Below, in pieces: positions 1,784 through 18,653 of a DNA stretch of 20,529 nucleotides. The notes beneath the pieces were generated by a model, which had not been told where the DNA came from, made no database searches, and saw only the letters and a program-made list of their open reading frames with translations. The stretch is from a virus. Within the stretch, counting starts at the first letter, position 1; every line of letters begins with the position of its first letter. The stretch covers positions 1-20,529 of IMG/VR virus record IMGVR_UViG_3300033146_002322; one strand, 5' to 3'. A program made the translations under genes and the position numbers.

Positions 1784-1818
1784 AAATAGTCTCCTAGTAT
1801 AAAAAACTATTTATGTTT
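1778..1818 (-). promoter_or_regulatory. RNA stem-loop over the resolvase start codon
   Basis: A perfect 13-bp inverted repeat (arms 1778-1790 and 1806-1818) surrounds a 15-base loop. In the minus-strand mRNA the 5' arm contains the primase stop codon (TAA at 1811-1813), the loop holds the Shine-Dalgarno AGGAG, and the 3' arm contains the resolvase ATG (1781-1783). Folding would leave the ribosome site open but pair the start codon. The 5' arm also reads CATAAATA (minus strand, 1808-1815), one base away from the T4 late promoter TATAAATA; that match is weak on its own in DNA this AT-rich. Confidence 0.65.
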
Positions 1819-2809
1819 TTTGTTTATCCACAGGAAAGTATATTTTATCAGTTATATTATTTGTAAAATATGACGAAATCATATCCCACGTCAAGATATC
1901 AATATTTTCATTATTATACATGATAAAATCATTAACATCCTTAATATCACGATTACATTTATGATCTTTTAAGAATTTTGACCAATTAAACACATATTTT
2001 CTAAGTTTTAACAATTTAATAGCATTTTTATTGCCACTATTATCATTATCCACCATAAAATATTTTTGTTTAAAATCATTAAGTCTATCATCTTTTAATT
2101 TCAATCCTGTCACTGCAACACTGTTTGCTACAAAAATAGAATCTATAGGTCCTTCAAGAATAATTACAGGTTTATCCTTATCAACATTATAATAATTATA
2201 GACGCTATTATGGATACCATATCTAGAAAGATATTTAACGCCTATCTTATTATTAAATTTACGCCCTTGATAATAATATATTTTACCAGTTGCATTATTT
2301 CTGAACGGTATTATTATTCTACCTTTATATAACCCGCCAACAGAATAATACCATTTAGAATATACCTCTTTTGGTATTTTTCTATTCTCACAAAATTGGA
2401 CACAGTCCTCAAATTTAAGAATAGACTTGAAATGTTTAGTATCTTCTTTTTCATCTCTTTCTTGAGAACTTTTTACTTTTTTAATATTATCATATTTATT
2501 TTGGTCCATTATAGATGATTTATTTTGACGAATGACATCTCCCATATATCGTTTATAATCATCATTAAAATATTGTTTCATCCAATTAGGAACAGACATT
2601 GATACTTGACAATTATGACAATAATAGACCCATGGTTCTTTATTTTTTAATAAATATCCCCGTTTAAGATATTTATCTTTTTTAGAATCACCACAAACAT
2701 TACAACGAACGTTATAAAAGTCGCTTGTTTCAAACACCTCGGTAAAATTTCTACTGAGTATAGAACGAACGTGTCGTTCTAATATAAATTCATCATAATA
2801 TAAATTCAT
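1811..2809 (-). CDS. DNA primase, T4 gp61 / DnaG type
   Basis: A 332-residue primase that would make RNA primers for lagging-strand synthesis together with the gp41-type helicase. The N-terminal zinc-binding domain has two CxxC pairs (C36/C39 in RCNVCG and C64/C67 in YCHNC). The Toprim domain follows, with PFRN and YYYQGRKF near 168-184, the catalytic E219 in ILEGPIDS, and the metal-binding DND at 254-256. A DVNDF motif is at 291-295. Length is close to T4 gp61 (about 340 residues). The start at 2809 is preceded by GAAAGGG, placed just after the gp32 terminator, so expression probably depends on read-through of that terminator. The stop is embedded in the stem-loop that covers the resolvase start. 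Confidence 0.9.
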   Translation of the reverse strand: MNLYYDEFILERHVRSILSRNFTEVFETSDFYNVRCNVCGDSKKDKYLKRGYLLKNKEPWVYYCHNCQVSMSVPNWMKQYFNDDYKRYMGDVIRQNKSSIMDQNKYDNIKKVKSSQERDEKEDTKHFKSILKFEDCVQFCENRKIPKEVYSKWYYSVGGLYKGRIIIPFRNNATGKIYYYQGRKFNNKIGVKYLSRYGIHNSVYNYYNVDKDKPVIILEGPIDSIFVANSVAVTGLKLKDDRLNDFKQKYFMVDNDNSGNKNAIKLLKLRKYVFNWSKFLKDHKCNRDIKDVNDFIMYNNENIDILTWDMISSYFTNNITDKIYFPVDKQKT

Positions 2810-10296: not shown

Positions 10297-11493
10297 TTAC
10301 AATAAACTTGTGATTTTATTTATATATGCAGGACTTTCAGTAGTCCACGCATTATCTATAACTTGTTGATATTGTTGTGTTATTACATCATTATACACAA
10401 CAGGATCACACAATTTATTAAAAATCAAATCATCTATTTCGTCAATAGTAATATTATCGGATACGCGTGTTATTGATACATCATAAGGAGATGGTTTCCC
10501 ATTATCAAACACTGTACCAATACCTAATACACCAGCAACACAATATTCTTGATATTTTATAGCACTTTTAGAATAATTAAAATAATTAGGAACTAAAGGA
10601 GATATACCAAAATCAGCATTAATAGATTTAACAACACCAGGATAATTTAGACTATCTACCCATTCGATTACTTGTATCTTATCTTTAATAGATTCAAAGA
10701 ACCACGGCAACCCACCCATCTGTATATATTCTATTTTATCAGCATTTACAGCATTGATAATCCATTCTCTCCACGCATTATCCATATCCCCAGCTAATTT
10801 ATGTTCATTATGCCAATGAGTAGGACTAGCAGACCACATTATTCTCGGTTTTTTTATTTTTTCTGTTTTAGGAGCAACTTTATCAGTTCCCCATAAATAT
10901 GCAGGTAATGTGTTATGAATTATTTCTATTTTATCAGGATCGATGCCTTTAGATGCTATATAATCTCCTAAAAATTTAGTACTAACACATACAGTATCCA
11001 TCATTTTCATATTTTCTATAGCAGCATTTTGAACTTCAGTATCTATAGAAATCTTACCAAAATTATATTCAGGAATCTCTTCACCATCAACATCACCATC
11101 CCAAATAAAATCATCAATATCATATACCATTTTAAAACGATATTGTTTTTGTAATTTTTTATAATGTTTAATAACATCAACAGATTGTGGTGCCATTGTT
11201 CTCTGGAAGAAAATACTACGAGTCTTTTCTAACACATCTGGCTGAAAAATCATGTGTGGTGATATAATTGTTTGAAAGTTTCTATCCTTACCAAAAACAG
11301 AATTCATATATGTCATGGGTATAATATTACGTATAAAACCACAACCAGTATAATCTGAATTATATGACAACACTAAAGTTTTTTGTATTTTTTTCAAACC
11401 TTCTTTATTAGAAGATCTATTAGCCCCAAGTTCAGTATTTGGGGACATCATCTGTTTCTTAAAATTTTCAATATCAGATGTCGGTAAATTCAT
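10297..11493 (-). CDS. GT-B fold glycosyltransferase (GT4-like)
   Basis: A 398-residue protein with the pattern of GT-B enzymes. Seen are an N-terminal Rossmann-like half with GCGFIRNIIP (50-59), FFQR (95-98) and VYDIDDFIW (123-131), then VSTKFL and IIHNTLP. The C-terminal donor-binding half has RIMWSASPTH (217-226), QMGG, and a late block YFNYSKSAIKYQEY (304-317) followed by GVLGIGTVF, where family members bind the nucleotide-sugar. No signal peptide or membrane segment is apparent, so it should act in the cytoplasm. AAGGAGAT precedes ATG 11493 and overlaps the end of the gp47 gene. Its place among replication genes suggests phage DNA as the acceptor, but lipopolysaccharide or protein targets cannot be excluded. 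It is not obviously related to the T4 alpha- or beta-glucosyltransferases. Confidence 0.75.
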   Translation of the reverse strand: MNLPTSDIENFKKQMMSPNTELGANRSSNKEGLKKIQKTLVLSYNSDYTGCGFIRNIIPMTYMNSVFGKDRNFQTIISPHMIFQPDVLEKTRSIFFQRTMAPQSVDVIKHYKKLQKQYRFKMVYDIDDFIWDGDVDGEEIPEYNFGKISIDTEVQNAAIENMKMMDTVCVSTKFLGDYIASKGIDPDKIEIIHNTLPAYLWGTDKVAPKTEKIKKPRIMWSASPTHWHNEHKLAGDMDNAWREWIINAVNADKIEYIQMGGLPWFFESIKDKIQVIEWVDSLNYPGVVKSINADFGISPLVPNYFNYSKSAIKYQEYCVAGVLGIGTVFDNGKPSPYDVSITRVSDNITIDEIDDLIFNKLCDPVVYNDVITQQYQQVIDNAWTTESPAYINKITSLL

Positions 11494-14766: not shown

Positions 14767-14795
14767 AATATAACCATTTTTCAAAATAAAATCAA
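14767..14795 (-). promoter_or_regulatory. sigma70-like promoter for gp46 and following genes
   Basis: Minus-strand -35 TTGATT (14790-14795), 17-base spacer, -10 TATATT (14767-14772). The gp46 start codon at 14733 lies about 34 bases from the -10 box. It is the leftward half of a divergent pair with the promoter at 14934-14962. Confidence 0.72.
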
Positions 14796-14933
14796 GTAAT
14801 TTATATAAGTATAGGATATATTAAAAAATGTTCCCTGTACGATCTGGGGGTTTAGAAAATAAATAATAAAACTAATACTAATATATACTTAATTAATACT
14901 ATATAGTTATTAGATATTATTACGCATGAGGGC
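14796..14933. other. AT-rich divergent intergenic region between two outward promoters
   Basis: About 140 bases with no credible reading frame between the gp46 and primase-like promoters. Most of it is A/T, with loosely related inverted segments (for example around CTAATACTAATATAT and TATATAGTTATTAG). One short GC-rich island, near GTTCCCTGTACGATCTGGGG (14830-14849), stands out. It could hold an operator, a small structured RNA or a replication origin; nothing in the sequence decides between these. Confidence 0.4.
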
Positions 14934-14962
14934 TTGACTTTTGTTTAGAGTTTATGTATATT
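14934..14962 (+). promoter_or_regulatory. sigma70-like promoter for the plus-strand primase-like/uvsY/uvsW unit
   Basis: Plus-strand -35 TTGACT (14934-14939), 17-base spacer, -10 TATATT (14957-14962). The preceding bases GGGC are the same as those before the gp32 -35. Predicted start of transcription is near 14969, about 25 bases before ATG 14994. Confidence 0.75.
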
Positions 14963-14993: not shown

Positions 14994-16679
14994 ATGAGGA
15001 ATATGAAACAAATACAAATGTCTATAAAATATAATTATCTTTCTGATAGTTATATTCCGAAATTTATTAAATATGACGATGTTGTGTCGTTAGATATTGA
15101 AAATACTGATGATTTGGATACTTTTGTTGAATTTGTTTCAACATATGTTCATTCATATTACGAATATGTTGATAATATTAGAACTGAAGCAACATTTAAG
15201 CGTTCTTATGGTGTAATATTGGATTTTGATAATAAACAAGGACACAATGATTCGACTATTTTAGAATTTCAAAAGTCAGAATTTGCAAAAAAATATAATT
15301 GGATTCTTTACACATCTAAATCTCACATATCTGATGTTCAAGACTGTTTTCATGTGTTTATACCATTTGATGTCCCTGTTGATACTGTAACTGACTTGAA
15401 ATCAGCATATTATAAAATATTTGATGAACTTGACACTTGTAATATAAAATGTGATACACAAGTACATGACGGAGCTAGACTGATTTATCCTTCCGTTAAA
15501 TTGTATGACATTGATTTTGATTTTTATATTGAAAGTTATTTTTTGGGTGAGTATTATAAATATACTCAAACTAGTGTAAATGTTCCTATACCAGCGTTGA
15601 TTGTAAAAACACACGAACTTACTGATAATAATTTAGATATTGATGATATTGATAATAAATATCTAACTGTATTTAATACTATGAGTAAAACAGCACAATA
15701 TTCGTACATTAAATCTGTGATGAGATATTTGAATTCTAAAAATAGAAATAATGGCTATAATTTAATAAACTATAATATGTGGATTGGTATAGGGTTTAGC
15801 TTATATCGTCAATTTGGCTATTCAAATGGTATTAAATTATTTAAAATTTTAAGTGATGGTTATCCAGGAGATACTTCTCAGTTTATAGAGCAACAGTATA
15901 ATTATTTAAGTGGAGATAATAATAACACTGCTGTAAACTTAGACATCATAATTAAAATTTCTAGTAAAATGGGTTTTAAACATTCAATGTATTTTAAATA
16001 TTATTTTATGTCTAAACATACGTTTAGTTATAAAGTTTCTTTGATGTATTATACGCGGATGCAGCGTTATTTGATGAATAAATATAATTTGGATGAATTT
16101 AATTACAATGATGTTAAGATTTATAATTATTCAGATAAAAAAAATACCAGATGTTTTTTGTTGGAAGCTCGTAATGATGAAAAATACATACATATTACAG
16201 TTCGTTTGGGAGAAATGATGGACATTATGTCCGAATTGTTGTCTGTTGATAGGGAATTTATAACATCTAGTGTTACTAGAGGCATAATTAGACGATTTAT
16301 AAATATTAATGGTGTCTATAATATGCAATTATATGCTAGGAATAAAATAATAGATTCTGTTGATAGTACATATATAAGAGTTTCTGATATAAATAATATC
16401 ATGTCTCGTATTAGATCATATACTCCCACGACAATACATAGAATGCTTACTAATTCTCATATGCAACAATATTTACAATCTATTGGATTTTTGTTGTTTA
16501 AGAAAAAACGTAGAGTTGGCAAGAAAACTTATATGATGTTTAAAGTGGATTTGACTAAATCGTATAATGATTCTTTTATTTTTATAGAAGAAGAGTTGGA
16601 TATACGGGTTAAATTTTATACATTTTCATTGATAGAAAACAATTTTGTTGATATGCATACATCTGTTATGCGTTGTTGA
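14994..16679 (+). CDS. archaeo-eukaryotic primase (PrimPol-like) candidate with PriCT-like domain
   Basis: A 561-residue protein. Residues 71-167 show the order of AEP-superfamily motifs: I, YGVILDFDN with D77/D79; II, LYTSKSH (S108-H111) followed by FHVFIPF; III, D154...GARLIYPS with R162. Next, residues about 232-325 contain NYNMWIGIGFSLYRQFGY and an ILSDGYPGD segment, resembling the PriCT domain that follows the catalytic core in phage and plasmid AEP primases. The last 220 residues are unrecognised; a basic KKKRRVGKK stretch (504-511) may be part of a DNA-binding element. It leads the unit with UvsY and UvsW and is separate from the gp61-type primase at 1811. Family assignment is by motif reading; polymerase activity is inferred. 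Start is uncertain: ATG 15003 lies two bases after AGGA and ATG 14994 has no clear site. Confidence 0.68.
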   Translation: MRNMKQIQMSIKYNYLSDSYIPKFIKYDDVVSLDIENTDDLDTFVEFVSTYVHSYYEYVDNIRTEATFKRSYGVILDFDNKQGHNDSTILEFQKSEFAKKYNWILYTSKSHISDVQDCFHVFIPFDVPVDTVTDLKSAYYKIFDELDTCNIKCDTQVHDGARLIYPSVKLYDIDFDFYIESYFLGEYYKYTQTSVNVPIPALIVKTHELTDNNLDIDDIDNKYLTVFNTMSKTAQYSYIKSVMRYLNSKNRNNGYNLINYNMWIGIGFSLYRQFGYSNGIKLFKILSDGYPGDTSQFIEQQYNYLSGDNNNTAVNLDIIIKISSKMGFKHSMYFKYYFMSKHTFSYKVSLMYYTRMQRYLMNKYNLDEFNYNDVKIYNYSDKKNTRCFLLEARNDEKYIHITVRLGEMMDIMSELLSVDREFITSSVTRGIIRRFININGVYNMQLYARNKIIDSVDSTYIRVSDINNIMSRIRSYTPTTIHRMLTNSHMQQYLQSIGFLLFKKKRRVGKKTYMMFKVDLTKSYNDSFIFIEEELDIRVKFYTFSLIENNFVDMHTSVMRC

Positions 16680-16694
16680 AAAAAAGAGGAATAT

Positions 16695-17120
16695 ATGTCT
16701 TATAAATTAATGGAAGATACACAATTTAAATCGTTACAGGCTAAAGTTAATAAAGATTTAACAATAACTCCAGATAATGTGATGCAAAAATCTCTAGATT
16801 TGTCGAAGTTATATACTGAGTATTCTAGGCGATATTACACACAAGTTTCAATATTAAAAAATATAAATATTGAGAAAGTTAAATTGTATAAAAAATTATA
16901 CCATCATTATAAATTTGACGGGGATTTTAGATTAGATACTAAAAAAGAAATAGAAGTATATGTATTAGGTGATGACTTGTATTGTGAATTAAGACGTGAT
17001 TATGAAAAACAAACAATCATTGTAGAATTTTTAGAAAAAACCTTGTCTAATATTCAGAGAGCTAGTTTTACTATACGAGATTATATAGAATTACAGAAAT
17101 TTAAAAAAGGTGTAGTATAA
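16695..17120 (+). CDS. uvsY: UvsY-like recombination mediator
   Basis: A 141-residue protein (T4 UvsY is 137) that would load UvsX onto gp32-coated single-stranded DNA. The sequence follows the UvsY pattern: an N-terminal helix with TPDNVMQKSLDLSKLYTEYS, then KVKLYKKLYHHYKFDGDFRLD (about residues 61-81, compare LKARLDYYSGRG in T4), EIEVYVLGDD, RRDYEKQTIIVEFLEKTL and a closing IRDYIELQKFKKG. It is rich in lysine and aromatic residues. GAGGA stands four bases before the ATG. The gene is followed three bases later by uvsW; the uvsW-uvsY pairing is also found in T4. The match is by eye over the whole length rather than by catalytic motif. Confidence 0.82.
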   Translation: MSYKLMEDTQFKSLQAKVNKDLTITPDNVMQKSLDLSKLYTEYSRRYYTQVSILKNINIEKVKLYKKLYHHYKFDGDFRLDTKKEIEVYVLGDDLYCELRRDYEKQTIIVEFLEKTLSNIQRASFTIRDYIELQKFKKGVV

Positions 17121-17123
17121 CTA

Positions 17124-18653
17124 ATGAGTGATGTTATCGGTATTGCAATGTTGAGTGGTGCTTATGTAGAAATTGATTGTAATGATGATCAGGCATATGA
17201 ATTAAAAGAATATTTTTCATGTTATGCTGCGGATTATCAAAATCATCCTAAATATAGGGCACATCAATGGGATGGAAAAGTATATTTTTTTTCTATCCAT
17301 GATAGGACGCTACCATTTGGTTTGATTTCATATATTAAACCTTTTTTAAAGCAATTTAATTATAAAGCTAAGTTTTATTTTGATAAAGAATTGTTGAAAA
17401 ATAATATTGATAAAGAAGATCTTGTTGGATTTTATGATACACTGTTCGATGGTGTTAAGACACATGATGGACACGATTTATATCCTAGAGATTATCAGCA
17501 AGATGCTATTTATGCAGCAGTACGGCATAAAAGATGTGTATTGGAATCGGCGACTGGATCAGGAAAATCATTAATATTATACACCCTCGTAAGATTTATG
17601 ATGGCTGATACTGACGGTAAGGTTCTTATAATAGTTCCTTCTATAAATTTAGTGAATCAATTATATAATGATTTTAAAGGATATGGATGGGGTGATATAT
17701 GGGAATATGTTAGTTTATTGCATGGGAAATCTAAATATGATCATAATAAACAAGTAACAATATCAACGTGGCAATCTTTATATAATAAGCCTGAAGATTT
17801 TTTTGAAGAATATGAGGGTGTTTTAGTTGATGAAACTCATGGAGCTAAATCGTTATCTATTCGTACTATTTTAGAAATGTGTGATAATGCTGAGTATAAA
17901 ATAGGAGTTACAGGCACCTTGCCTGATAATAAAGCAGATAAGTTTAATATATATGGGTTTTTAGGTCCATTAAAATATCAACTAAAAAGTAAGACTTTGA
18001 TAGATAATGGTATTTTATCTAAAATAACAATAGTAAATTTAATAATTAGATATGGTCGTCGTCATATTGATCATATTATGGGTAATGGGTATAGTTACGA
18101 AGTTGATTTTTTAATGAAATATCAACCAAGAAATAATATTATTAGATATATATTAAATAATATTGATAATAATCATAATGTTTTGATATTGAGTCATAGG
18201 ATAAAACATATAAATTCTATGGTCGAATTTATCACTAAGTATTATCCTGAACGTGAAATATTGGTGATTCACGGGAAAACTCCGCCTGATGAGAGAGAAA
18301 GGATTAGAACATATGTCGATAGTGCTGATGGTGTTATTTTGGTTGCTAGTTATGGAACTTTATCCACTGGTGTTAATATACCGAAGTTACATCACGTTGT
18401 TTTTGCATCATCTTATAAATCTAAAATAAAAGTATTACAATCGATTGGTAGAGGATTAAGAAAACATAAATCTAAAAAACAAGTGATTATTTGGGATATT
18501 GTAGATGATTTACGAAAAAAGAATGCTAATGGTCGATGGCAAAATAATTATATGTATAATCATTTTTATAAACGTTTAAAATATTACAAACATCAGGAAT
18601 TTAAGTATATAAATAAACGATTACCATTGAGTAAATTTATTAAAAATAAATAA
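17124..18653 (+). CDS. uvsW: UvsW, superfamily 2 helicase
   Basis: A 509-residue ATP-dependent helicase (T4 UvsW is 503) that would unwind R-loops and branch-migrate recombination and stalled-fork structures. The N-terminal domain contains HQWDGKVYFF (47-56). Helicase motifs are Q-motif region LYPRDYQQDAI, Walker A ATGSGKS (143-149), motif Ia VPSINLVNQL, motif II DETH (236-239), motif III TGT (263-265), motif IV region VLILSHR, motif V SYGTLSTGVNIP, and motif VI QSIGRGLRK. The gene starts three bases after the uvsY stop with AAGGTG some 13 bases upstream. It ends just before a terminator at 18666-18695. Confidence 0.93.
   Translation: MSDVIGIAMLSGAYVEIDCNDDQAYELKEYFSCYAADYQNHPKYRAHQWDGKVYFFSIHDRTLPFGLISYIKPFLKQFNYKAKFYFDKELLKNNIDKEDLVGFYDTLFDGVKTHDGHDLYPRDYQQDAIYAAVRHKRCVLESATGSGKSLILYTLVRFMMADTDGKVLIIVPSINLVNQLYNDFKGYGWGDIWEYVSLLHGKSKYDHNKQVTISTWQSLYNKPEDFFEEYEGVLVDETHGAKSLSIRTILEMCDNAEYKIGVTGTLPDNKADKFNIYGFLGPLKYQLKSKTLIDNGILSKITIVNLIIRYGRRHIDHIMGNGYSYEVDFLMKYQPRNNIIRYILNNIDNNHNVLILSHRIKHINSMVEFITKYYPEREILVIHGKTPPDERERIRTYVDSADGVILVASYGTLSTGVNIPKLHHVVFASSYKSKIKVLQSIGRGLRKHKSKKQVIIWDIVDDLRKKNANGRWQNNYMYNHFYKRLKYYKHQEFKYINKRLPLSKFIKNK

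Follow-up and report, generated by a model that had tools for sequence, protein, structure and literature searches.

A primase-like gene ahead of uvsY and uvsW

The window analysed here, virus record IMGVR_UViG_3300033146_002322 of IMG/VR over its full 20.5 kb (20,529 nucleotides), carries a T4-type replication and recombination cluster. Within it, an open reading frame (ORF) at 14994–16679, which reads as 561 codons from ATG 14994 just as a preliminary description of the sequence had proposed, is by its sequence and predicted fold a gene for a protein of the archaeo-eukaryotic primase (AEP) superfamily, lying ahead of uvsY and uvsW in a phage that also has a gp61-type primase. Because the start sites of six homologues fall at or near M4 of this ORF and an AGGA Shine-Dalgarno sequence stands upstream of the second ATG, we regard ATG 15003 as the likelier true start, giving a 558-aa product. 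The gene and the catalytic features discussed below are as follows.

14994–16679, plus strand: AEP-type primase gene (PrimPol-like), 561 codons from ATG 14994, probable true start ATG 15003
15126–15563, plus strand: AEP catalytic domain, about residues 45–190; supported by hhalign against phage primase/helicases (E 1.4e-6) and by fold similarity to S-2L PrimPol and AsfvPrimPol
15222–15230, plus strand: motif I, D77-F-D79, invariant in 7/7 members; aligns with DID of phage primases
15315–15326, plus strand: motif II region, S108-K-S-H111, invariant in 7/7; aligns with SRNH
15453–15455, plus strand: motif III, D154 (after C153), invariant in 7/7; aligns with FD of phage primases
15477–15479, plus strand: motif IV arginine, R162, invariant in 7/7; motif as defined in PMC5862659

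Sequence evidence for AEP identity

Searched alone, the window protein returned nothing useful from PDB, INPHARED or PHROGs sequence searches and no curated family match save PriCT_2 at an E-value of 0.098, and relatives were therefore needed for a family assignment. The family set comprises the window protein and six homologues recovered from IMG/VR scans (35–65% identical to the window protein), joined in a seven-sequence alignment; three further candidate loci (L020, L022 and L023), which came from a DNA pattern, turned out to be chance matches and were dropped. The window AEP family had no match among 50,697 phage records, and no relative appeared in a scan of contigs from the genomes of 84,980 species.

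Thirteen residues (D77, D79, S108, K109, S110, H111, C118, H120, D154, D159, R162, P166 and S167) are invariant in all seven members, against a share of invariant positions of 0–31% by region, so that the conservation of the motifs exceeds chance. DFD at 77–79, SKSH at 108–111, FHVFIPF and GARLIYPS at 160–167 all occur at the residues claimed in the preliminary description, whose AEP motifs are thus real, although it had overlooked the third acidic residue, D154. Judged against published motif definitions (PMC5862659), VILDFD at 74–79 corresponds to motif I (hhhDhD/E). For motif II (sxH), His111 is invariant with a small residue at H-3 (S108) and lysine at H-2, and the streptococcal SRNH is spaced alike. 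The invariant pair C153-D154, aligned with FD141 of phage Javan639, corresponds to motif III (hD/E), and R162, invariant and followed by L or M, corresponds to the arginine (Rh) found after motif III in the PrimPol-PV1 supergroup.

Profile comparison gave an AEP match. When the family profile was compared by hhalign with three streptococcal phage primase/helicases, it scored 90.5% probability (E 1.4e-6), and the four AEP motifs lined up with one another (DFD/DID, SKSH/SRNH, D154/D141 and R162/R149); in control runs, the real alignment reached 90.8%, whereas none of 40 column shuffles exceeded 0.8% and the reversed profile scored 0.1%. Furthermore, the homologue at locus L014 matched 47 of the 50,697 phage records, all of them Streptococcus phages (best E 4e-5), through their N-terminal domain, and among the rows listed most are annotated as DNA primase or primase/helicase. 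PHROG 3228 (replicative helicase-primase) matches five of the seven members, PHROG 1883 matches L014 (E 3.4e-8), and the NCBIfam model for CRISPR-associated PrimPol gives a weak match to one member. Weak matches to Pfam MLKL_N, Peripla_BP_7 and others were rejected as single-member and implausible. Pfam and PHROG profile searches detected no Toprim domain in the window AEP protein; Toprim resides on the separate gene at 1811–2809.

Predicted fold and domain layout

The fold was modelled with AlphaFold2 from the seven sequences (an earlier three-sequence model, with a mean predicted local distance difference test score (pLDDT) of 47.5, was discarded), and the known-structure families compared are those on the VIA-align list. 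The comparison recovers PrimPols and phage AEP primases. Foldseek against PDB ranks AsfvPrimPol first (E 3e-4), and VIA-align gives the same protein a Z of 8.9 over 204 aligned residues at a root-mean-square deviation (rmsd) of 12.3, a value that indicates domains displaced relative to one another. Aligned alone, the AsfvPrimPol helical domain matches model residues 231–336 (Z 8.0, rmsd 3.2, 96 aligned), and the AEP domain of the cyanophage S-2L PrimPol (6ZP9) is matched at Z 8.0, rmsd 4.3, over 148 residues. A fold search among viral models returned 48 matches at E<=1e-3, the named ones being mostly primases, PriCT or VirE proteins. These matches (AsfvPrimPol, S-2L PrimPol and many viral primases) point to the RRM-like catalytic core in a model of moderate confidence. 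Two further domains were delimited.

15657–16013, plus strand: PriCT-2-like helical domain, about residues 222–340; sub-threshold PriCT_2 match, residues 231–336 align with AsfvPrimPol
16314–16553, plus strand: winged-helix domain, about residues 441–520; matches many winged-helix chains at Z 6–7

The PriCT-like segment of the preliminary description is supported: PriCT_2 (PF08707) matches five of seven members at the same place (best E 0.006, 17.4 bits), each below the Pfam cut-off, which is why we call it PriCT-2-like. The statement there that the C-terminal 220 residues are unrecognised needs amending, since residues 441–520 or so adopt a predicted winged-helix fold, while 345–440 match nothing assigned; residues 523–561 were modelled with very low confidence. 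Profile searches and the model gave no ATPase match in the protein. The predicted domain order is accordingly AEP, PriCT-2-like helical domain, a stretch of about 100 residues and winged helix; the protein lacks an ATPase.

Co-occurrence with gp61 and evolutionary history

The intact gp61-type primase reported for the window is confirmed:

1811–2809, minus strand: gp61-type (DnaG/Toprim) primase, PHROG 47, E 6e-47

In a survey of co-occurrence, gp61 was present in four of the four AEP-positive contigs that reach it, namely the window and each of the three contigs above 20 kb that carry a homologue. The wider lineage was assembled as 44 loci gathered via a neighbouring 398-aa protein. In 19 AEP-negative relative contigs both gp46 and uvsY are visible and the gene is absent from the same site, the gp46-uvsY gap measuring only 255–387 bp in 10 of them and several others holding different inserted genes. 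A profile search that recovered the known positives found no AEP family match anywhere in 29 AEP-negative relative records; gp61 is carried by 17 of these, contigs of 253 and 264 kb among them. The concatenated tree requires two changes, and in the simplest history the gene was gained once, at the base of a nine-row clade, and lost once, in loci L057/L058. The ratio of nonsynonymous to synonymous substitution (dN/dS) is about 0.21 between the window and L001 and about 0.15 between L007 and L015, with dS saturated; together with the invariant catalytic residues, these low values indicate a gene under selection. Given the presence of gp61 alongside it, the 19 relatives that lack it and this selection, the AEP gene is, as far as sequence can tell, an accessory, long-selected second primase gene, and gp61 has not been replaced.

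The 398-aa protein itself (window 10297–11493) has no Pfam match, is kept beside gp47 and is 58–80% identical across six aligned clade loci; it looks like a lineage hallmark and appears glycosyltransferase-like by eye. By ORF reading, the cargo of the gp46-uvsY interval in relatives includes HNH endonuclease-like, radical SAM-like, Hsp20-like, TnpB-like and other genes, at the following positions.

L068, 2269–4431: gp46-uvsY insert
L070, 731–2145: gp46-uvsY insert
L075, 3873–4744: gp46-uvsY insert
L083, 1860–4347: gp46-uvsY insert
L086, 2652–4178: gp46-uvsY insert
L088, 1942–3458: gp46-uvsY insert
L094, 3069–4551: gp46-uvsY insert

Gene order and predicted promoters

The minus strand of the window encodes RuvC, the gp61-type primase, gp32, gp41, UvsX, gp43, a DHH protein, the 398-aa protein, gp47, gp55 and gp46, and the plus strand encodes the AEP protein, UvsY and UvsW (gp32, UvsX, gp43, gp46 and gp47 were identified by reading the sequence and from gene order). 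At each of the seven loci, the AEP gene precedes uvsY and diverges from gp46, and uvsW follows wherever it is in view (it is truncated in L007 and not visible in L015). Only 15 bp separate the AEP gene from uvsY, and 3 bp separate uvsY from uvsW.

16695–17120, plus strand: uvsY, Pfam UvsY, E 2.6e-9
17124–18653, plus strand: uvsW helicase, UvsW_N (E 2.3e-16), ResIII and Helicase_C
14934–14962, plus strand: sigma70-type promoter of the AEP-uvsY-uvsW operon, TTGACT-N17-TATATT, consensus match
14767–14795, minus strand: divergent sigma70-type promoter facing gp46, TTGATT-N17-TATATT, consensus match
14825–14866, plus strand: conserved 42-bp element, candidate operator or origin, shared by 5/7 loci with the AEP gene; the window has one strong match

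A TTGAC(T/A) box, a 17-nt spacing and a TATATT- or TATTAT-like box lie upstream of the AEP gene in 7/7 loci. The preliminary description had given the gene its own promoter; the site is there, but it would drive an AEP-uvsY-uvsW operon rather than the AEP gene alone, and this predicted promoter probably yields the AEP protein along with UvsY and UvsW. Late-promoter TATAAATA sites were no commoner than chance. In T4, a late promoter drives UvsW expression (PMC3016281), and regulation here may therefore differ from that in T4. The 42-bp element (AAAATGTTCC...GAAAATAAA) sits between the two divergent promoters and can alternatively be read as a mini-ORF of about 10–12 codons. Separately, the gp41 helicase, UvsW and gp43 genes seem to be interrupted in an intein-like manner in two loci (L007 1183–1815 and 13828–14835; L015 76–2244).

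Possible roles of the second primase

T4 is the textbook case of replication from R-loops and recombination, with gp61 as its primase. UvsX, UvsY and UvsW together with gp46/47 drive its recombination-dependent replication; why T4 infections deficient in primase still replicate extensively at late times is unexplained (PMC3016281). The roles suggested in the preliminary description, namely recombination-dependent restart, origin firing and damage bypass, stay conjectural. We tentatively favour, with slightly less than even confidence, a role for the AEP protein in priming at recombination or restart structures, where we infer its enzymatic activity, its substrate and its coupling to recombination from sequence and model. 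The gp61–gp41 pair would stay the replisome primase, and the winged-helix and PriCT domains would bring the AEP protein to single-stranded or branched DNA produced by the recombination system, such as D-loops, regressed forks or R-loops that UvsW has opened. Primers laid at these sites would be extended by gp43, which would provide an additional route to start or restart forks. Several observations weigh against this. The model is moderate (pLDDT 69, predicted template modelling score 0.41), and a Z near 8 is a level at which chance arrangements occur and is not strong alone, so that the AEP case rests on the agreement of sequence and fold; the Pfam gathering cut-off of 22 bits for PriCT_2 is reached by none of the seven members. 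Moreover, absence from L057/L058, inside the clade, points to dispensability, the gp46-uvsY gap is an insertion hotspot because unrelated cargo occupies it in other relatives, and a joint operon with uvsY-uvsW does not prove shared function.

Among the other explanations, a plasmid-Rep-like initiator, which the preliminary description did not consider and whose winged helix would bind a specific site (perhaps 14825–14866) for PriCT and winged helix to melt and the AEP domain to prime a defined extra origin, is unlikely but deserves to be kept in view. RepE/RepS, PrimHYQ and ColE2-type AEPs have an AEP-PriCT-helix-turn-helix (HTH) arrangement without an ATPase, and ColE2 Rep unwinds DNA with PriCT plus HTH (PMC5862659). 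The 42-bp element lies directly upstream in five of seven loci, and a scan of three loci that lack the AEP gene (L057, L058 and L066) did not find it. However, the element was not found in AEP-positive L002 and L014 either, an operator for the divergent promoters accounts for it equally well, no iterons were seen by eye, and DNA folding of the gp46/AEP intergenic region is ordinary; GC skew was set aside as origin evidence, since its flip follows gene orientation, a pattern that recurs in other parts of contig G005. That the clade acquired such an initiator-primase to fire a site-specific origin in this intergenic region, co-expressed with the UvsW/UvsY switch proteins, is quite improbable; if true, a T4-type system with R-loop and recombination-dependent initiation would also possess a dedicated initiator.

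A lesion-skipping PrimPol that re-primes past damage or stalled forks, like eukaryotic PrimPol, in a damage-tolerance operon with UvsY and UvsW is also unlikely. It would suit the operon and the hypersensitivity of T4 uvsW mutants to DNA damage and hydroxyurea (PMC3016281), and eukaryotic PrimPol extends primers and bypasses lesions (PMC5390496); against it, the winged helix and PriCT layout is closer to initiators than to PrimPol, and inspection of the AEP protein sequence showed no PrimPol-type zinc knuckle. Neutral or selfish cargo, meaning an AEP gene from a plasmid or prophage lodged in the gp46-uvsY hotspot and serving some purpose other than phage replication, would explain why different unrelated genes fill this interval in other relatives and why the gene is cleanly absent from L057/L058; its retention at one place with invariant catalytic residues in seven divergent lineages, and a dN/dS well below 1 between near relatives, make this very improbable. 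PADLOC gave no defence match, which counts against cargo and leaves a defence role unsupported. Finally, chance motifs in an unrelated protein that is not a primase are hardly credible: by sequence alone the protein falls short of every curated family cut-off, but profile, tblastn, PHROG and fold evidence converge on AEP.

Comparison with known systems

The AEP family and its placement by uvsY-uvsW are new, and a limited literature search found no description of an AEP gene paired with uvsY. The preliminary description was right in joining AEP/PrimPol-type identity to co-existence with a gp61-type primase, as profile, fold and co-occurrence evidence bear out. Among T4-type phages the pairing is not unprecedented. 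Agrobacterium phage Atu_ph07 likewise has a gp61-type primase plus an AEP-like domain, the latter in the C-terminal region of AUZ94973.1 (762 aa; FDID and FFYFPS motifs; BFVD fold match E 1.5e-6), and a T4-related phage that combines primases of two types therefore has a precedent. Unlike the window protein, AUZ94973.1 is fused to an N-terminal superfamily 2 (SF2) helicase and has its motif II histidine replaced (SSYSN), and no uvsY is among the genes annotated around it; its gene (MF403008, 150708–152996) is annotated as hypothetical. According to Kazlauskas et al. (PMC5862659), T4-like phages contain homologues of some of the SF2-like helicase domains linked to AEPs, and a jumbo-phage survey placed DnaG-like primases in a T4-related group and AEP-ATPase fusions in another (PMC7824862). 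Two of the isolates closest in UvsW, Melnitz phage and S-CRM01, have no AEP gene before uvsY. In cyanophage S-TIM5 (JQ245707), the PHROG 47 primase was not found in the record and the 328-aa H6WG13 matches the AEP model by fold; this phage perhaps relies on an AEP primase alone.

The closest matches, the Streptococcus prophage AEP-D5 primase/helicases (such as QBX22207.1 of phage Javan639), have an N-terminal AEP domain in which these four motifs follow one another as they do here. They continue into D5_N, a superfamily 3-type ATPase region and a Pox_D5-like C-terminus, whereas the window protein continues into its PriCT-2-like and winged-helix domains; and Javan639 lacks a gp61-type primase, whereas the window AEP co-exists with gp61 and gp41. 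In layout (AEP, PriCT-like, winged helix, no ATPase match) the window protein resembles the initiator-primases RepE/RepS, PrimHYQ and ColE2-Rep, which combine AEP, PriCT and a (winged) HTH and have no helicase domain (PMC5862659). These proteins have PriCT-1, whereas the window protein has a sub-threshold PriCT-2-like domain and an extra stretch of about 100 residues, and it is encoded in a T4-type phage with its own replicative helicase.

A second, unrelated primase type beside recombination genes suggests that a small group of uncultivated T4-type phages has an additional means of initiating or restarting replication. The clade offers natural plus/minus comparisons of what a second primase adds to recombination-dependent replication, and the 558-residue protein would be a small, ATPase-free PrimPol candidate for biochemistry. 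With the S-2L PrimPol (6ZP9) it has the AEP fold in common (Z 8.0, 148 residues), and gp43 is present in the window phage. With T4 gp61 it would share only the presumed output, primers for gp43, the DnaG/Toprim fold of gp61 being unrelated and encoded by a separate gene in the same phage.
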